From the NCBI RefSeq assembly GCF_035573695.1, contig NZ_CP121694.1, positions 3,480,001 through 3,544,000 on the forward strand: a DNA stretch of 64,000 bases, written 5' to 3'. Source of the stretch: Metallumcola ferriviriculae. Its GTDB lineage: Bacteria; Bacillota; JADQBR01. A program made the translations under genes and the position numbers. Below, piece by piece: positions 635 to 58,802 of the stretch. Below the pieces are notes generated by a model that was given only the letters and a program-made list of their open reading frames with translations, made no database searches and had not been told where the DNA came from. The stretch's first letter is position 1; each line of letters begins with the position of its first letter.

Positions 635-3322
635 TTAGCTTATCTTGTCTACCTTAACCGCACAAACCTTAAACTCCGGTATCTTTGCCTTTGGATCTCG
701 GGCATCGTTGGTGAGTTTATTAACATTAGTTTCACGGAAGTGGAAAGATGCAAACACTAGTCCTGGTTGTACCACTTCGGTAACTTTTACCGGTATTTCT
801 ATCTCGCCACGGCGGGAGGCTACGCGTACTTTCTCGCCGGTCTCCACCCCTAATTTTTCCGCATCCTTAGGGTTTATCTCCAGATACTCTTCGGGGTAAA
901 TCTCCGTTAAAGCGTCCACTCTACGAGACATGGTTCCAGTATGATAATGGAATAAACGTCGGCCGGTTGTCAATACCATTGGATATTCATCATTAGGCAT
1001 TTCGTCAGGATCTACATAACTGACAGCATGGAACTTGCCCTTACCCCGGGCAAACCCACCTTGATGCAGCAGCTTTGTGCCCGGGTGTTTTGTATCGGGA
1101 CAGGGCCATTGAAGACCCTTTTGCTGCAATCTGCGATAGGTGATGCCGCCATACTGCGGTGTCAACTCATTGATTTCCGCCATAATATCAGCCGCACTCC
1201 TGTAGTCCATTTCGTAACCCATGGCCTTGGCCAGCATTTGGGTGATCTCCCAATCCGCCTTACTGTCGCCGATAGGATCAACCGCCTTGCGTACCCGCTG
1301 TACACGGCGTTCAGTATTAGTGAAAGTGCCGTCTTTCTCCGCAAAACTGGCGGCAGGCAGTACTACATCTGCCAGTTCCGCAGTTTCGGTAAAGAATATA
1401 TCTTGAACAACCAAGAATTCTACGTTCTTTAGACCCTTAGCAACGTGGTTGCTGTCCGGGTCACTGATAACCGGGTTCTCACCGATCACCATAAGGGATT
1501 TTAGTTTCCCTGCCAAGGCATTGTCCATCATTTCACCAACGGTAAGACCTACCTTAGAAGAAAGTTTGACTCCCCAAGCTTTTTCAAATTTGGCCTGAAT
1601 TTCCTCATCATTAACCTTCTGATAGCCTGGATAAACATTAGGTAGTGCACCCATATCACAGGCACCCTGCACATTGTTCTGGCCCCTCAATGGGTTTACA
1701 CCGGTGTTTTCCCGACCGATATGTCCAGTGAGTAACGCGAGGTTGGCAATAGCCAATACATTATCGGTACCGCAGATGTGTTGGGTAATGCCCATAGTAT
1801 AAAGGATGGTTCCTTTTTCTGCTGCCGCGTAGGCCCTGGCTACCTGACGGATGGTATCCGCAGGAGTATTGGTGATTTTTTCTGCCCATTCCGGAGTACA
1901 ATCTCTTACCGCTTCCTTGACAGCATCAAAATCTTCAGTTTTATCAGTAACGAATTTTTTATCCCATAGCTCTTCATCAATTATTACCTTAGCCATGGCG
2001 TTTAACAGCGCCAAATCTGATCCGGCTTTATGCTGTACATGGATATCTGCAATATCCGCCAGTTCGATTTTTCTTGGGTCTGCCACCACCAGCTTAGATC
2101 CTTCTTTCACCGCTTTTCTGATTTGCAAGCTTAGCACAGGATGGGTCTCGGTGGTGTTGGTGCCGATAGCCAGAATAAAGTCCGCACCGGCTATCTCATG
2201 AATAGAATTAGTCATTGCTCCGCTGCCAAATGCTGCCGCCAGACCGGCGACGGTAGCGGAGTGTCAGAGACGGGCACAATGGTCAATATTATTTGTACCC
2301 AACACCGCCCTTGTAAATTTATTAATAACGTAGTTTTCCTCGTTAGTACAGCGCGCCGAACTGAACACAGCCAGAGCGTCACTGCCTTCTTCATTCTTAA
2401 TCTGGGAGAATTTTTCCGCCACATAACCGATGGCTTCCTCCCAAGATGCTTCTTGAAACTCTCCGTCTTTCTTAATTAACGGAGTAGTCAATCGATCGGG
2501 ATGATGAACAAACTTATAGCCAAATCGCCCCTTGACACATAACGCCCGACCGTTAACTTCAGACTCAGCGTTAGAAGTCACACCAACAATTTTATCATCC
2601 TTTACATTAAGGTCAAAGTTACAGCCTACCCCGCAATAAGGACAGGTGGTACGCACCTTTTTTAGCTCCCAAGACCGACCTACACCATGCATCATCTTTT
2701 CTGTGAGCGCACCCGTGGGGCAAACTGATACACAGCTGCCGCAGAACACACACTCAGATTCAGCCAATGGAGTATCCATCGCCGGTGCGGGGATTGTATC
2801 AAAGCCGCGGTAAGCAAAGGAGTAAATACTTCTTCCCTGTACCTCGTCACAGACTCTTACACATTTACCACATTTGATACACTTATTTAGATCCCTTACG
2901 ATGAATGGGTTACTATCATCTATAGGATACTCTTTTCTTTCGCCGCCGAAAGTATCACCGCGTACACCATAATGGTAGGCATATTCCTGGAGACGGCACT
3001 GTCCTGTACGTTCACAAGTCAGACAATCTTCGGGATGATTTGCTAGTAATAATTCAATAATGGTTTTACGGGCATCAATTACATCGGGACTGATAGTACT
3101 TACCACCATCCCATCGCCAGCAGTAGTCACGCAGGAAGCAGGCAAATTACGCATACCCTCAATCTCCACCACGCACATGCGGCAAGCACCTGGACTTGTT
3201 AGTTCCGGGTCATGACAAAATGTGGGTATTTCAATCCCAACTTTACGGGCCGCCTGAAGTACCGTCGTACCGGCAGGTACCGTAACCTTCTGCCCGTCAA
3301 TAGTTAGAGTTACTTTGGACAC
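635..3322 (-). CDS. fdhA: selenocysteine-containing NAD-linked formate dehydrogenase, catalytic subunit (UGA at 2264-2266 read as Sec353)
   Basis: Molybdo/tungsto-bis-MGD formate dehydrogenase oxidising formate to CO2 (or the reverse) in the cytoplasm. Read conventionally it splits into two frames, but both share one frame separated by a single TGA. Reading TGA as selenocysteine gives an 895-residue protein with the motif CARLUHSATVAGL, Sec at the position of the active-site Sec of E. coli FdhF. N-terminal domains match NuoG: a [2Fe-2S] set (C36, C47, C50, C64), a His-Cys cluster (H96, C100, C103, C109), two ferredoxin-like [4Fe-4S] motifs (about 140-205), then CPYCGVGC opening the catalytic domain. 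The C-terminal molybdopterin dinucleotide-binding domain is complete. The start is ATG after a GGAG-type site, 18 bases after the NuoF-like gene. A SECIS hairpin follows the UGA. The family and Sec calls are firm; the physiological direction is unknown. Confidence 0.95.
2218..2261 (-). promoter_or_regulatory. SECIS element of fdhA
   Basis: Directly after the UGA the mRNA can fold with an outer stem CUCCGCU/AGCGGAG and an upper stem CGCC/GGCG closing the apical loop GGUCU. GGUCU is the apical loop of the E. coli fdhF SECIS recognised by SelB. Spacing and size match bacterial SECIS elements. Confidence 0.9.
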
Positions 3323-52564: not shown

Positions 52565-52600
52565 AAAGGTCCGAGAGAGCTTCCCCCCCCTCGGACCTTT
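52565..52600. terminator. terminator of the AOR-ADH operon
   Basis: AAAGGTCCGAG (52565-52575) pairs with CTCGGACCTTT (52590-52600), with an A-run on the left giving a T-run on the minus strand just after the alcohol dehydrogenase stop. Confidence 0.85.
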
Positions 52601-52612
52601 GCCCAATTCTTC

Positions 52613-53788
52613 TTAGAAACAGCTGCGATAAATTTTCTCATAACCCTTGGCATTAATATCTCTGGGATTACCAACGGTTTGTGGGTCCTTTTCCGCTTCC
52701 TTGGCAAGGCGGGGAATCATATCTTCAGGAACACCTAGGTCTCCCAAAGTAGGAATATCGATGTCTTCTGCCAATTGCCGTACTGCCTCAACGGATGCGC
52801 ACGCGGCATCATTAATATCCATCGCGTAAGTATCAACACCCATGGCCTGAGCGATACGAGCAAATTTTTCCGGGTCGCCGACCCAATTATATTCCATTAC
52901 CGGCGCGAGAGTAGCCGCTACAGCAAGTCCGTGGGGTACTGGAATAATTCCACCTAATGTCTGGGTCATGGCATGTACCGCGCCTGCGCTTTCACTGCCG
53001 TAAGCAAGACCGGCTAACATTGCTGACATTGCCATCCCATAACGAGCTTCAATATCTTGCCCATTAGCTGCAGCTCGACGGAGGTACTTTGCTGCATATT
53101 CAATAGCCAAAAGGGCCACCGCATCAGTCTGGGGCTGAGCATAGTGACAGGTATAACACTCAATGGCGTGACAAAGGGCATCCATACCTGTGCCGGCAGT
53201 AACCGCTGGCGGCATAGTCACATGCAGCTCCGGGTCAATCAAAGTCAAGTGTGCAGCAATTAACGGACCACCGGTATTAAACTTAAACTCCCTAGCCGGG
53301 TCGGTGATTACCGCCCAAAGAGTAACTTCACTGCCGGTACCTGCAGTAGTCGGTATCGTTACCAATGAAGGAATTCTCTTTGTCAATTCCTTTTTACCTT
53401 CTGCACATTCATATTCCAACACCGATTCACCATGAGCGACTTCCACGCCGATGGCCTTAGCAGTATCCATGGAACTACCGCCGCCAACAGCAACCAAACC
53501 ATCACAGCCTTGTTCTTTATATAACATTGTCCCTTTGGCCACAACTTCCAAAGGAGGGTTAGCAACAACCCCATCATAAATTACATAAGGAACTGCCGCT
53601 GCCTTCAAGCTTTTTTCTACCGGCTCCAGCAACCCGGCATTTTTTACACCCTGGTCAGTAACAATCAGAGGCTTGGTGACTCCTAATGCTTGTACTTCTT
53701 CCCCCAACGCCTTAATTGCACCAATACCGTGCTTCATTACCGTGGGAACTTCGAAGACACTTAGTTTCTGCATTTGCTCAATTCTCAT
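52613..53788 (-). CDS. iron-containing (type III) alcohol dehydrogenase
   Basis: A 391-residue NAD(P)-dependent dehydrogenase. GGGSSMDTAKA binds the cofactor; iron ligands appear in GMDALCHAIE (Asp and His), AVHAMTQTLGG and VPHG. It overlaps the AOR gene by one base (TAATG), so both are made together, allowing acid-aldehyde-alcohol conversion in either direction. GbsB of B. subtilis, a choline dehydrogenase, belongs to the same type III family, and a GbsR-type regulator is encoded nearby, so choline or a related alcohol is a candidate substrate. Confidence 0.93.
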   Translation of the reverse strand: MRIEQMQKLSVFEVPTVMKHGIGAIKALGEEVQALGVTKPLIVTDQGVKNAGLLEPVEKSLKAAAVPYVIYDGVVANPPLEVVAKGTMLYKEQGCDGLVAVGGGSSMDTAKAIGVEVAHGESVLEYECAEGKKELTKRIPSLVTIPTTAGTGSEVTLWAVITDPAREFKFNTGGPLIAAHLTLIDPELHVTMPPAVTAGTGMDALCHAIECYTCHYAQPQTDAVALLAIEYAAKYLRRAAANGQDIEARYGMAMSAMLAGLAYGSESAGAVHAMTQTLGGIIPVPHGLAVAATLAPVMEYNWVGDPEKFARIAQAMGVDTYAMDINDAACASVEAVRQLAEDIDIPTLGDLGVPEDMIPRLAKEAEKDPQTVGNPRDINAKGYEKIYRSCF

Positions 53789-55629
53789 TAAATAACCTCC
53801 TTAGAAATGTTTAATTGATTTAATTTATCTTCTCTAGGCCGGCCACTCTCGTCCCAACCTCGAAGAGCATAATATTCCTGAAGCATTACCTGTTGATCTT
53901 CTTGTGTGAACCTGTGCCCCTTGGCCGGTCCATCCGGCAGTGGCTCAAAAAACCTTTTAGGTAATCTCTCTTGGGTCATATCCAACCCCTGTCGAAGGTT
54001 AAACAATCTAGTGGTATTCCATATTCGCTCACCCATAATCATTAATTCCGATTCACTCATTTCCACACCTGTTGCTGCAGCCAACATTTCCAAATACGTG
54101 GCTGCAGTAATGCCAAATGAGCCGAAGTCACATTTAACCAGGGTATCCAGACCGGCAGAATAGTTCTGGTCATGGATGACCATTGCCGCTTTTCCCGTAA
54201 CTGCCAGCCGATCTACTATTTTACCGTCCCAAGGTACACCACCTACTTCATAATTGATGGGAAAAGCTCTCTGATGACAAGCGCCGCGATCAGCAGTAAG
54301 ATAGGCAAGCCCCATACCCGGCACCCCTCTAGGACCCCAAGCGGGAATATCCATCCCCTTGACATGACATGCCTGCAACTGTGCATCTTTACCCAGCTGC
54401 TGGCTTGCTTTGGCGGTTCCCATGCTCAGAAGTTCACCCAAGGGGCCACGTCGATTAGCAATGTCGGTGAGCAGCTTCGCTATATTCTCAGCGGACCCAA
54501 ACTCGACAGTATATTGGTGAGCAGCTTCGCTGAATATACCTTTTTCAAAACATTCCATGGCAAAACCGACGACGCTGCCTGCGGACATACCATCCAGACC
54601 CAGGGCATCACAGAGGTAGACCAAATAAGCTACCTCGCGAATATCAGTTAATCCCAGATTTGCACCCATTAATGCCGCTGTTTCATACTCCACGATGTCT
54701 GACACAGTGCCCTTTCGCTTTCCTTTTCTGATTACACCCACTTTACTACACCTAATTGGGCATGAAGCGCATCCCACATCTCTAAGCCAAATTTCCTTTT
54801 TCTGGGCGTCTTCTGCCAGTCCTTCAGGGTTGAAGGTACCTTTACGATAGTTCTCTACAGGAAGTAGACCTTGCTCATCAGCAAACCATAAGGAAGATGC
54901 CGTGCCGGCTCTGGTTAATTCCTGCACCGTCTCATCCCCGGCTAATTCTTCCCGGGCAAGGGCAGCAGCTTTCGCAAAACGCTGATTATCATTGATGGAT
55001 ACTATTCCCGTACCCTTGACGGCAATCCCTTTTAACTTCTTACTGCCCATGACGGCGCCAACACCGCCACGTCCTGCCTGGCGATTATATTCACAAGATA
55101 CTAACGCAAATGGTACTTGGTTTTCCCCGGCAGGGCCGATGGAAGCCACTTTCACTGTTTGGTCAGCCAGCTGCTCTTTTATTTTTTTATTCGCTTCAAA
55201 GGTGTCCGTCCCCCACAGATGGCCTGCCGGCTTAACTTGAACCTCTTCGTCTTCGATATAAAGGTAAACAGGCTCTTCTGCCTGACCAGCAACCACTAAG
55301 GCATCAATGCCGGCATACTTCAATTCTTGAGCAAAGTGACCGCCGTAATAGGAATCAACAAATCCCCCGGTCAGTGGGGAGCAGGTCACAACAACACCCC
55401 GGGTAGCCGGTGCATTGGTGCCCGTAAGCGGCCCGGCAGCAAAAATCAAAAGATTCTCCTTCCCCAAAGAGTCAATTTTTCCGGAAGTTTCATTATTTAA
55501 GATATAGGCTGCTAACCCCTTGCCGCCTACATAGTCCCCCAGTACTTGCTTGGGAATTTCCCTGATTTCATGGGTTTCGGCAGTCAAATCAATGTAAAGA
55601 AGTCGGCCATGGTATCCGGTATTATTCAC
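53788..55629 (-). CDS. aor: tungsten-containing aldehyde:ferredoxin oxidoreductase
   Basis: A 613-residue AOR-family enzyme oxidising aldehydes to acids with ferredoxin, or reducing acids. The N-terminal GYHGRLLYIDLT and VGGKGLAAYIL, the pterin-binding TRGVVVTCSPLTGGFVDSYY, the [4Fe-4S] ligands CASCPIRCSKVG with a later Cys (VKCDFGSFG), and GLDGMSAGS are typical. The start is GTG at 55629 after GGGGGTGA, overlapping the ferredoxin gene by eight bases; the longer frame to 55662 is not needed. Substrate is inferred from context only. Confidence 0.93.
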   Translation of the reverse strand: MNNTGYHGRLLYIDLTAETHEIREIPKQVLGDYVGGKGLAAYILNNETSGKIDSLGKENLLIFAAGPLTGTNAPATRGVVVTCSPLTGGFVDSYYGGHFAQELKYAGIDALVVAGQAEEPVYLYIEDEEVQVKPAGHLWGTDTFEANKKIKEQLADQTVKVASIGPAGENQVPFALVSCEYNRQAGRGGVGAVMGSKKLKGIAVKGTGIVSINDNQRFAKAAALAREELAGDETVQELTRAGTASSLWFADEQGLLPVENYRKGTFNPEGLAEDAQKKEIWLRDVGCASCPIRCSKVGVIRKGKRKGTVSDIVEYETAALMGANLGLTDIREVAYLVYLCDALGLDGMSAGSVVGFAMECFEKGIFSEAAHQYTVEFGSAENIAKLLTDIANRRGPLGELLSMGTAKASQQLGKDAQLQACHVKGMDIPAWGPRGVPGMGLAYLTADRGACHQRAFPINYEVGGVPWDGKIVDRLAVTGKAAMVIHDQNYSAGLDTLVKCDFGSFGITAATYLEMLAAATGVEMSESELMIMGERIWNTTRLFNLRQGLDMTQERLPKRFFEPLPDGPAKGHRFTQEDQQVMLQEYYALRGWDESGRPREDKLNQLNISKEVI

Positions 55630-56038
55630 AACAATCACCCCCGTTAAATAACTGCAATGCACCCGTAGGACACTGCTCTACACACCGAGGTGAACCACCA
55701 CAAAGGTCGCACTTTAAAGCTTTCTTCTTAAGAATAACTATTACCCCGTTAGGACAATATTCACTACAGCTGCCGCAGCCGTTACAATCCTGTTCATTTA
55801 CCACCAGTACCCCCTGTTCATTTCGTTTAATCGCCCCAGTTGGGCAAACCTGCTGGCAAAAGGCATTTTTACATTGATTGCACACTACAGGCCGGCTGAC
55901 TAAGCCATCTCTTTCATTAAGCACCTTCATTCGGGCCAATCTAGGATTAAAACCACCCACAGCAGCATTGCTACACGCTAGCAGACAGATAGCACATCCA
56001 GTACAAATACTAAAATCCGTTACTAGTTTGTTTCCCAT
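55622..56038 (-). CDS. polyferredoxin partner of AOR
   Basis: A 138-residue protein with four Cys-rich motifs of the DmsB/HycB type: CTGCAICLLAC, CNQCKNAFCQQVCP, CNGCGSCSEYCP and CDLCGGSPRCVEQCP. It should carry up to four [4Fe-4S] clusters and take electrons from AOR. It is first in the AOR operon and divergent from the GbsR-type regulator, sharing an intergenic region with repeated motifs. Confidence 0.93.
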   Translation of the reverse strand: MGNKLVTDFSICTGCAICLLACSNAAVGGFNPRLARMKVLNERDGLVSRPVVCNQCKNAFCQQVCPTGAIKRNEQGVLVVNEQDCNGCGSCSEYCPNGVIVILKKKALKCDLCGGSPRCVEQCPTGALQLFNGGDCCE

Positions 56039-56075
56039 ACTCCTCCCCCTTACGAACTACATGCATTGTATTGTC

Positions 56076-56150
56076 TATACTGTTTGTACAGTAGAAACTG
56101 TACTTGATTAATATTTAGATACATTATATACTGTTTATACGGAAAAAATC
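56076..56150. promoter_or_regulatory. candidate GbsR operator repeats in the divergent promoter region
   Basis: TATACTGTTTGTAC (56076-56089) and TATACTGTTTATAC (56137-56150) are near-identical 14-mers 61 bases apart, and an inverted repeat GTACAGT-AGAA-ACTGTAC spans 56086-56103. They lie between the divergent ferredoxin/AOR and regulator genes. Confidence 0.6.
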
Positions 56151-56170
56151 AAACGAAAAAGGTGAGTTGG

Positions 56171-56725
56171 TTGAAATTGAACTGTCCTTCAGATATGGAT
56201 AAATTAGAAATAGCTAGAAGGCGTATTAGCACCGTTATGGCAAAAACCATGGATTTATACGGCACACCTCCTTCAATTGGCATGCTTTACGCCACATTAT
56301 ACTTCAGCGAGGATCCTTTGACGCTGGATGAGCTAAAAGAGTCTATGGGTATGAGCAAAACCAGCATGAGTACCGGTGTAAGGAAGTTGGAGGAAAACCA
56401 TTTCGTCAATAAAGTCTGGCAAAAAGGTGTACGCAAAGACCTCTACGAAGCCCAAAAAGACTTCTACGAAAGCTTCATTGGTTTCTACTGTAACATGTGG
56501 CACAGGGAACTTGAGCTGAACATGGAGGCTATCAGAAAAGCAGAACCGGAATTAAAAGCACTGCTTAAAAGCAGTGACGAAGAAGTGAGACGTCTAGCTG
56601 AAAGAGATCTAGCGCAGTTGGAGAATGGCCAGAATTATTACAAATGGCTTGAAAAGCTGGTTAAAAGTCTTGAAAGCGGCAAAATCTTTGACTTCATTCC
56701 AAAATTGGAAAAGGAGGTGGACTAG
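56171..56725 (+). CDS. gbsR: GbsR-family (MarR-like) transcriptional regulator
   Basis: A protein of about 184 residues. MDLYGTPPSIGMLYATLYFSEDPLTLDELKESMGMSKTSMSTGVRKLE with KVWQKGVRKDLY closely follows B. subtilis GbsR, the choline-responsive repressor of glycine betaine synthesis and uptake genes. The likely start is TTG at 56171 after AAAGGTGAG (GTG at 56162 is possible). Downstream are a glycine betaine binding protein and permease; divergently lie the AOR/ADH genes. It probably controls both directions. Confidence 0.92.
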   Translation: MKLNCPSDMDKLEIARRRISTVMAKTMDLYGTPPSIGMLYATLYFSEDPLTLDELKESMGMSKTSMSTGVRKLEENHFVNKVWQKGVRKDLYEAQKDFYESFIGFYCNMWHRELELNMEAIRKAEPELKALLKSSDEEVRRLAERDLAQLENGQNYYKWLEKLVKSLESGKIFDFIPKLEKEVD

Positions 56726-56782
56726 GTCTTTAGTGTACGCTTTCATTAGAACTTTGTTCATAAATAAGAGGAGGTAATAACC

Positions 56783-57820
56783 ATTAAATATTTAAAAATG
56801 GGGAAAGTACGTTTAGTTATGATATTATGTCTGGTTTTGCTGGTGGCTGCGGGAGCAGTTGTTTCAGGGTGTACTAACCAAACCCAGCAGCAAGATACGG
56901 CAGGCAAAAACGAGGATGCCCAGAAAGATGACGCTGACACACCTAAAGAGGGTGATACCAAAGTACAGGTTGGCGATAAGAATATAAATCTGGGCATGGT
57001 TGAATGGCCTGGAGTCACCCAGAAGACTTACATCCTTAAAGAAGTACTGGACAAGTTAGGCTATGATGTCGAAATTAACACTTATACAGTACCTTTAGTG
57101 ATACAGGGATTATCTACAGGTGACATTGACGCTTTCGCAGGTACTTGGTTTGAAACCTTTGGCGAAGCACTGCAGAAAAAAATTGATAATGGCAGTATTA
57201 AGGTCACAAGCATTCAATTAGAAGATGCTTTGTATAAACCTGCGGTACCCACTTATGTGTTTGAGGCCGGAGTCAAGTCTATGGCTGACTTGAATAAATA
57301 CGCCGATAAGTTCAATCACAAATACTATGGTATTGAGCCTGGAAACGATGGAAATCAAATTATGATTGATGCAGTAAATAACGACACCTACAATTTAGGC
57401 GACTGGGAAGTTGTAGAGAGCAGTACATCAGGTATGCTGCTTCAAGCTAAAAAATTAACCGATAAAAAAGAGTGGATCGTGTTTAGTGCGTGGAAACCTC
57501 ACTGGATGAACGTTGTCTACGATATCAAATATTTAGACGACCCTGAAGGCCTCTGGGGTGAAGCCGCTAAAGTAGGTACAATTAGTTCTGCGGACTTCCC
57601 TGAGGAACATCCTAATGTAAACAAATTCTTGGAGCAATTTACTATCACCAGTGACATCCAAAGTGCATGGATTTTGGAATATGCTAAAAATGAACGTGAC
57701 CCCAAAGAAGTGGCCACGGAATGGGTTTCAAATAACCTCGACCTGGTCAGTCAGTGGCTTGACGGTGTAGTAACCGTAGACGGAAAAGATGCACAAAACG
57801 TTATTAAAGAGTCCTACTAA
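56783..57820 (+). CDS. glycine betaine/proline ABC transporter substrate-binding lipoprotein
   Basis: An OpuAC/ProX-like lipoprotein of 340-345 residues. The signal ends GAVVSGC and an acidic linker follows. The binding domain has NLGMVEWPGVTQKTYILKEV, AFAGTWFETFGEAL and VFSAWKPHWMNVVYDIKYL, with Trp residues suited to a quaternary-ammonium cage. The ATG at 56798 has no ribosome site, whereas AGGAGG lies 8 bases before an in-frame ATT at 56783, so an AUU start is plausible (product starting MKYLKMGKV). Confidence 0.9.
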   Translation: MKYLKMGKVRLVMILCLVLLVAAGAVVSGCTNQTQQQDTAGKNEDAQKDDADTPKEGDTKVQVGDKNINLGMVEWPGVTQKTYILKEVLDKLGYDVEINTYTVPLVIQGLSTGDIDAFAGTWFETFGEALQKKIDNGSIKVTSIQLEDALYKPAVPTYVFEAGVKSMADLNKYADKFNHKYYGIEPGNDGNQIMIDAVNNDTYNLGDWEVVESSTSGMLLQAKKLTDKKEWIVFSAWKPHWMNVVYDIKYLDDPEGLWGEAAKVGTISSADFPEEHPNVNKFLEQFTITSDIQSAWILEYAKNERDPKEVATEWVSNNLDLVSQWLDGVVTVDGKDAQNVIKESY

Positions 57821-57899
57821 GGAGAAAGGCGGGAAATTCCCGCCTTCTCTATACTCATTACTCTCACATGATTATGGACTTCATTAGGAGGATTACACA

Positions 57900-58727
57900 A
57901 TGTTTACTTTTCATGTAGGACCCATCTTTGAAGGTGCAGTTGACTGGCTTAATGTCAATTTCGCGCCTTTTTTCGACCTAATAAAATCATTTTTGCTAGC
58001 TCTGATTTCAAACTTAGAAATGCTATTACTAGCCGTTCCCAGCCTCATACTAATTGCGTTTATTGCCCTGATTGCCTGGAAAACAGCTGGTAAAGGCGTC
58101 GCGCTGTTTGCTTTTCTAGGGTTGCTCTTTGTGAATGGTATGGAACTATGGCCGGAAACTATGGCAACACTTTCCCTGGTGCTTTCTGCTGCGTTGATGG
58201 CTTTGGTAGTAGGAATACCATTAGGCATACTTTCGGCAAGAAATAGCACTGTGGATTATATTATCCGACCTTTGTTGGACTTAATGCAGACCATGCCCGC
58301 CTTTGTCTATCTAATTCCTGCGGTGCTGTTCTTTGAACTAGGTGATGTTCCCGGTGCAGTAGCTACTATCATATTCTCTATGCCTCCGGCAGTAAGACTG
58401 ACCACTTTGGGCATTCGACAGGTACCTGAAGAGGTTGTTGAGGCCGCCATGGCATTCGGTTCCACCCCTAAACAACTGCTGTTCAAAGTGCAAGTACCCC
58501 TAGCCATACCTACCATTCTTGCCGGGGTTAACCAAACAATCATGCTCGCCCTGTCTATGGTGGTAATCGCTGCCATGATCGGCGCCGGCGGTCTAGGTAT
58601 AGTCGTACTACGTGGCATCACTCAATTGAAATTTGGCATGGGTTTTGAAGGCGGTCTAGCAGTGGTAATCCTTGCTATGGTGCTGGACAGAATCACTCAA
58701 TCTCTCGGCCGAGGAGCTGCAAAATAA
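57900..58727 (+). CDS. glycine betaine/proline ABC transporter permease
   Basis: A 275-residue BPD-type permease (OpuAB/ProW-like) with about seven helices. The EAA-type loop is visible as RQVPEEVVEAAMAFGSTPKQLLFKVQVPLAIPTILAGVNQTIM. ATG at 57900 follows TTAGGAGGATTACACA. It ends the regulator-binding protein-permease unit, and no ATP-binding subunit is encoded here, so an ATPase from another locus must energise it. Confidence 0.93.
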   Translation: MFTFHVGPIFEGAVDWLNVNFAPFFDLIKSFLLALISNLEMLLLAVPSLILIAFIALIAWKTAGKGVALFAFLGLLFVNGMELWPETMATLSLVLSAALMALVVGIPLGILSARNSTVDYIIRPLLDLMQTMPAFVYLIPAVLFFELGDVPGAVATIIFSMPPAVRLTTLGIRQVPEEVVEAAMAFGSTPKQLLFKVQVPLAIPTILAGVNQTIMLALSMVVIAAMIGAGGLGIVVLRGITQLKFGMGFEGGLAVVILAMVLDRITQSLGRGAAK

Positions 58728-58739
58728 TATTTCCAAAAT

Positions 58740-58796
58740 GCGAGAAGCCAGGTTTAAAGTACGACCCATTGCGTACTTTGAACCTGGCCTTCTCGC
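58740..58796. terminator. long-stem terminator between permease and arsR
   Basis: GCGAGAAGCCAGG... (58740-58763) pairs with ...CCTGGCCTTCTCGC (58772-58796), a stem of about 24 bp with one bulge and one mismatch, between convergent genes. Confidence 0.8.
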
Positions 58797-58802
58797 CATT
58801 TA

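Follow-up and report, generated by a model that had tools for sequence, protein, structure and literature searches.

In a 64,000-nucleotide stretch of the genome of the bacterium Metallumcola ferriviriculae (contig NZ_CP121694.1, positions 3,480,001 to 3,544,000 of the forward strand; hereafter the window, whose coordinates are used below), the choline dehydrogenase gene gbsB is joined to genes for a tungsten aldehyde ferredoxin oxidoreductase (AOR) and its iron-sulphur (Fe-S) subunit. This cluster is likely to be a choline-induced module for glycine betaine synthesis in which the AOR and its Fe-S subunit take the place of the NAD aldehyde dehydrogenase GbsA and the betaine acts mainly as a compatible solute. 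Sequence comparison supports the identities of the genes, their organization as an operon, the linkage of GbsB to AOR, the replacement of GbsA, a clade-specific change in the active site, the cage residues of the regulator GbsR and an operator-like palindrome. Three tightly packed genes form a minus-strand operon running from 56038 to 52613, in the order Fe-S protein (55622-56038), aor (53788-55629) and gbsB (52613-53788); the first two frames overlap, and the stop codon of aor shares one base with the ATG of gbsB. Divergent from them, on the plus strand, lie gbsR (56162-56725), a gene for a lipoprotein binding protein (56798-57820) and a permease gene (57900-58727). The initial annotation had described this divergent layout correctly and had named the regulator, alcohol dehydrogenase (ADH), AOR and a transporter, whose genes are all present at the coordinates given, but it overlooked the 138-residue Fe-S protein that heads the operon. 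The chromosome to which the window belongs is complete (3.72 Mb), and the genome-wide absences reported here rest on model searches.

By family score, the alcohol dehydrogenase of the operon is GbsB, to which it had earlier been likened. This type III (Fe-dependent) enzyme reaches 679.8 bits over its whole length on NF053866, the equivalog model for choline dehydrogenase GbsB, compared with a curated cut-off of 550, and is about 68% identical to Bacillus GbsB. Other Fe-dependent alcohol dehydrogenases of the same genome reach 340-376 bits on this model. Those scoring 340-349 bits adjoin another AOR at about 2.99 Mb (locus L137), and the genome thus has an ordinary ADH-AOR pair plus a choline-type one. 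These relations bear on the possibility that the window pair oxidizes ordinary short-chain alcohols, such as methanol and ethanol, to acids, as proposed for Desku_2952/2951 of Desulfotomaculum kuznetsovii, with GbsR an incidental neighbour. Pairs of this kind, yielding NADH and reduced ferredoxin, do serve methanol and ethanol in that organism (PMC5770442), and AORs are often broad in aldehyde range (PMC12096430). Nevertheless, we regard this explanation as improbable: the window dehydrogenase lies 130 bits above the equivalog cut-off, the ordinary cluster is separate, the linkage is specific in that one AOR clade accompanies GbsB and replaces GbsA, and members of that clade carry a distinctive Trp at the substrate Tyr, as described below.

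Neither GbsA nor BetB was found in the window genome, in which no protein matched TIGR01804 (betaine aldehyde dehydrogenase, BADH) at E 1e-60. The one member of the aldehyde dehydrogenase superfamily in the complete genome is ProA, with its gene directly behind that for glutamate 5-kinase (ProB). Beside gbsB stands instead the AOR, whose open reading frame (53788-55662, minus strand; 624 residues) carries both AOR Pfam domains, PF02730 and PF01314 (AFOR_N and AFOR_C); the true start is probably the GTG at 55629, behind GGGGGTGAT. Its closest solved relative is the AOR of Pyrococcus furiosus (PDB 1AOR, 427 bits). Numbered on the 624-residue frame, the cluster cysteines 298, 301, 305 and 511 are conserved as a CxxCxxxC motif plus a distal Cys, and Thr254, Glu325, Tyr326, Glu327 and His463 occupy the positions of Thr243, Glu311, Tyr312, Glu313 and His448, which include the second-shell residues Glu313, His448 and Thr243 characteristic of the family. 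At second-shell position Tyr427, which varies in some members, the window protein has Trp442, and by these residues it is classed as a variant AOR. The Fe-S protein contains 16 cluster cysteines for four [4Fe-4S] clusters and is of the AorA or WOR5-beta type; apart from one partial polyferredoxin match, its closest PDB relatives are the AOR small subunits 9mqx_E, 8c0z_C and 6x1o_B. No gene for an FAD subunit adjoins the AOR, and ferredoxin is therefore the likely electron acceptor. The earlier proposal that an AOR could replace GbsA is thus supported by the sequences, with an AOR in the position of GbsA in a genome devoid of the latter. The module would work like GbsAB but, lacking GbsA or any BADH, does not belong among the GbsAB systems.

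Outside the window, 88 gbsB loci were assembled from close relatives of GbsB in 84,980 species genomes and from the neighbourhoods of a phylum sample. GbsA is encoded nearby at 68 loci, mostly from Bacilli, and an AOR at 16; one locus has an Fe-S gene at the contig end, three have neither enzyme and none has both. The AOR-type loci come from Desulfotomaculum, Pelotomaculum, Desulfoscipio, Peptococcaceae, Tindallia and metagenome-assembled genomes (MAGs) named Soudan and Tobar, and the Fe-S subunit accompanies the AOR in 14 of the 16. Among 398 phylum-wide genomes, GbsB exceeded the cut-off in 12, two of them with gbsAB and ten, from eight families, with an AOR. TIGR01804 was likewise exceeded in both gbsAB genomes, which belong to one genus, and in none of the ten AOR-type genomes, two of which (G002 and G091) do encode an aldehyde dehydrogenase, with a weaker score of 293-299 bits. 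A search of the same 398 genomes for the AOR returned 11 matches above 585 bits, corresponding to the ten GbsB-AOR genomes and one further genome (G147), with the next match at 481. As judged from gene content, an AOR stands in for GbsA beside GbsB in this anaerobic bacterium and in a dozen or more of its anaerobic relatives. Chance neighbourhood was rejected, as GbsB and AOR are linked in eight families of the phylum sample and also in other lineages reached by the wider scan; the linkage survey also led us to reject an annotation artefact as the explanation of the arrangement.

The Ammoniphilus contig NZ_SDLR01000005.1 bears gbsB twice (L054 and L057), at sites about 13 kb from each other, with GbsA at one only. 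In a Desulfohalobiaceae MAG (L120, 8974-10179), a gbsB encoding a 62% identical protein is flanked by folD-like and seryl-tRNA-synthetase-like genes and has no GbsA or AOR in its vicinity; it may reflect horizontal transfer outside Bacillota.

In a phylogeny of these enzymes, 15 gbsB-linked AORs form one supported clade (96/99). The two AORs from Tindallia fall outside it and group with another of the AORs that the window genome encodes (100/99); AORs were therefore gained beside gbsB at least twice, and Tindallia apparently replaced GbsA independently. At both Tindallia loci (L058, 2267-4183; L085, 6696 onward), this unrelated AOR is encoded between gbsR and gbsB, and there is no Fe-S subunit. 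In the P. furiosus enzyme, Tyr427 has been proposed to position the aldehyde (PMC12096430). Of the 15 main-clade AORs, 14 have Trp and one has Phe at the corresponding position; among the comparison AORs, 13 have Tyr or His and one has Ser. A hydroxyl-free aromatic ring at the aldehyde site would suit a trimethylammonium substrate. On balance we favour the view that the main clade represents a dedicated betaine aldehyde:ferredoxin oxidoreductase, in which the Trp would bind the trimethylammonium group by a cation-pi interaction, and that AORs were adopted at least twice for the GbsA step, with the gain of reduced ferredoxin from choline.

The regulatory gene points to choline as well. The product of gbsR (also cudC) is a MarR-type repressor 43% identical to a Bacillus GbsR. 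GbsR of Bacillus subtilis holds choline in a cage of six Phe residues (PMC6207618). With cage positions taken from Table 1 of that paper, the window protein has F101, Y102, S104, F105, F108 and Y109 at OpuAR positions 93, 94, 96, 97, 100 and 101, so that five of six are aromatic; the Ser stands at position 96, where OpuAR has Asn and still binds choline (PMC6207618). The intergenic region contains a palindrome, TGTACAGT-AGAA-ACTGTACT (56085-56104), with 8-bp half-sites and a 4-bp spacer, which we predict to be the GbsR operator; a second copy overlaps it at 56076-56095. Within three mismatches, the window contains matches at 56085, at 56076 and at a third site just beside them, and none elsewhere. 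The palindrome recurs at three other loci (L124, L127 and L128) and also at an Alicyclobacillus locus that has gbsAB (L118). Genome-wide, sister genome G002 has only two one-mismatch sites, both in the region between gbsR and the AOR operon. In G084, the best site of the genome, one that did not contribute to the motif, is found some 7 kb farther along the same gene cluster. Because the motif is based in part on these intergenic regions, its occurrence in them does not count as independent evidence, but its rarity across the genome does. The operator of B. subtilis GbsR has the same half-site length and 4-bp spacing and lies downstream of the start site (PMC7396694). Taking the predicted -10 element at 56123-56128, the window palindrome would span about +13 to +32, likewise downstream. 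The corresponding sigma-A-type promoter of the operon (56123-56152, minus strand; TTGATT-18-TATAAT, 10/12) is supported by its position alone and carries little weight, promoter-scan matches being no commoner than in shuffled sequences.

The transport genes had been annotated as a betaine transporter. An OpuAC-type binding protein and a permease are indeed present, but the former is ChoX-like and there is no accompanying ATPase gene. The binding protein reaches 266.8 bits on TIGR03414 (cut-off 379) and, in comparisons with PDB, 159 bits with ChoX (2REG) and 117 bits with OpuAC. Its residues W70, W117, Y146, N183 and W232 align with pocket residues of ChoX, and Gly occupies the position of ChoX Asp45. 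Being nearer to ChoX than to OpuAC and having kept an aromatic pocket, the protein more likely carries choline than betaine. The permease, of OpuAB/ChoW type, reaches 319 bits on TIGR03416 (cut-off 363).

Several observations weigh against the proposed module or against the dedicated role of its AOR. The best family of the regulator is CudC/GbsR NF047500, but its 215.5 bits fall 2.5 bits below the equivalog cut-off of 218. In the survey that the initial annotation had called for, the GbsB-AOR pairing does recur in anaerobes, but GbsR lies within 9 kb at only 9 of the 16 loci. No ATPase gene adjoins the window binding protein and permease, so the three-part composition of ChoXWV or OpuB is incomplete. 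The only ProV above cut-off in the genome, at 578652, has its own permease and binding protein. In sister genome G002 (L124), a 71% identical permease belongs to a complete binding-protein, ATPase and permease set directly behind gbsB; the cluster thus appears to have been rearranged in the window organism, which would have to borrow an ATPase, perhaps that at 578652. The AOR tree includes few outgroup AORs, and the Tindallia enzymes have His at the Tyr427 position, so that accommodating trimethylammonium would require another solution in them. Moreover, WOR4 of P. furiosus carries Trp at this site and was not active with any aldehyde tested (PMC12096430), and the exchange could therefore signify a loss of ordinary AOR activity. 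Finally, G147 encodes an AOR of the same type, with the Trp, but no GbsB.

The G147 enzyme (L161, G147:C4:1-14000, about 756-2576, minus strand) has an Fe-S partner, and its gene adjoins a branched-chain-amino-acid-type ABC transporter and a sugar-kinase-like gene; as several sites fixed in the gbsB-linked clade differ in it, it may use another aldehyde. This arrangement, in which a similar AOR stands beside such a transporter and apart from GbsB, lends something to the idea that the window AOR, too, has some other amine-derived aldehyde as its substrate, such as one released in the breakdown of dimethylethanolamine or carnitine, with the substrate of GbsB shifted likewise; a pocket that binds trimethylammonium or dimethylammonium groups would fit such compounds as well. 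We give this idea little credence, given that GbsB falls within the choline dehydrogenase equivalog and that the cage of GbsR and the ChoX-like binding protein both indicate choline.

According to the betaine synthesis scheme, choline would enter through the ChoX-like binding protein and the permease, powered by an ATPase from elsewhere, and would bind GbsR, lifting a roadblock on the FeS-AOR-gbsB operon. GbsB would then oxidize choline to betaine aldehyde with NAD, and the AOR would convert the aldehyde to glycine betaine, with the Fe-S subunit relaying the electrons to ferredoxin. The product would be retained mainly as a compatible solute. Alternatively, the pathway could be mainly catabolic, supplying NADH and reduced ferredoxin from choline for energy, with the betaine broken down or exported. 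The ferredoxin reduced in the aldehyde step could indeed serve this purpose, and GbsB-AOR pairs occur in Desulfotomaculum, Pelotomaculum and Desulfoscipio, and salt stress may not affect all of these. Model searches of the window genome, however, found no MttB-superfamily methyltransferase (control positive), no match to the betaine reductase GRDB (a weak negative, the control being silent) and no pyruvate-formate-lyase-like gene, hence no CutC. Furthermore, a GbsR-type regulator is of the osmostress type, and one sister genome is a MAG from Soudan, a mine known for deep brines. With the known anaerobic routes of betaine and choline breakdown not evident, a catabolic role seems unlikely, and the simplest interpretation is that betaine serves mainly as a compatible solute.

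Among characterized systems, the closest parallel is GbsAB-GbsR of B. subtilis (PMC6207618, PMC7396694), which shares with the window an orthologous GbsB, the choline cage of GbsR, the divergent layout, two half-sites with a 4-bp spacer downstream of the start and a choline transporter nearby. The window differs in having the AOR and Fe-S subunit instead of GbsA and in its half-site, TGTACAGT rather than the B. subtilis-type TGTTAAAT. The gbsAB and gbsR-gbsU genes of Halobacillus halophilus (PMC6207618) likewise place gbsR ahead of the gene for an orphan binding protein for quaternary amines and divergently to the oxidation genes, but the latter encode a BetA-type dehydrogenase and GbsA, and no AOR. 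The AOR itself resembles AorAB(C) of Aromatoleum (8C0Z) and WOR5 (6X1O) in combining a catalytic tungsten subunit with a small subunit of four [4Fe-4S] clusters and in conserving the second-shell Glu, His and Thr and the cluster cysteines (PMC12096430); it differs in having no adjacent FAD subunit gene, in the exchange of Tyr427 for Trp and in the linkage to a choline dehydrogenase. The same article states that WOR5 turns taurine into glycine betaine via betaine aldehyde; as this route includes no N-methylation, it is chemically doubtful and looks like a naming error, and it is not used as support here. D. kuznetsovii (PMC5770442), compared by description only, is an anaerobe that also has genes for an NAD-linked ADH and a ferredoxin-linked AOR side by side, but the substrates there are methanol and ethanol, and choline and betaine go unmentioned. 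A search of the open literature, which did not cover subscription journals, found no paper on the GbsB-AOR pair.

If the proposed module is correct, an AOR clade for which we found no assigned function would gain a physiological substrate and a residue-level prediction, and strict anaerobes would have a route from choline to glycine betaine that requires no NAD aldehyde dehydrogenase and ties osmoprotection to tungsten and the ferredoxin pool. Annotation that seeks pairs of BetA/BetB or GbsA/GbsB would record the pathway as incomplete in these organisms.

Several further features were noted. The chromosome of the window organism contains seven other AOR-family genes (at 2825886, 1190335, 1711156, 1438628, 2998404, 2728594 and 1227297); the one at 1711156 encodes neither of the usual residues Glu313 and His448. 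An AlphaFold model of the window AOR (9 sequences) had a mean pLDDT of 67.8, with values below 50 at residues 422-441 and 444-466, in the substrate region, and was not used. The FeS-AOR-gbsB operon is closed by an intrinsic terminator (52565-52600, minus strand) with a 15-pair stem, a 6-base loop and a T tail. At the other end of the cluster, a near-perfect long inverted repeat (58737-58798) between the convergent permease and ArsR genes is probably a bidirectional terminator.

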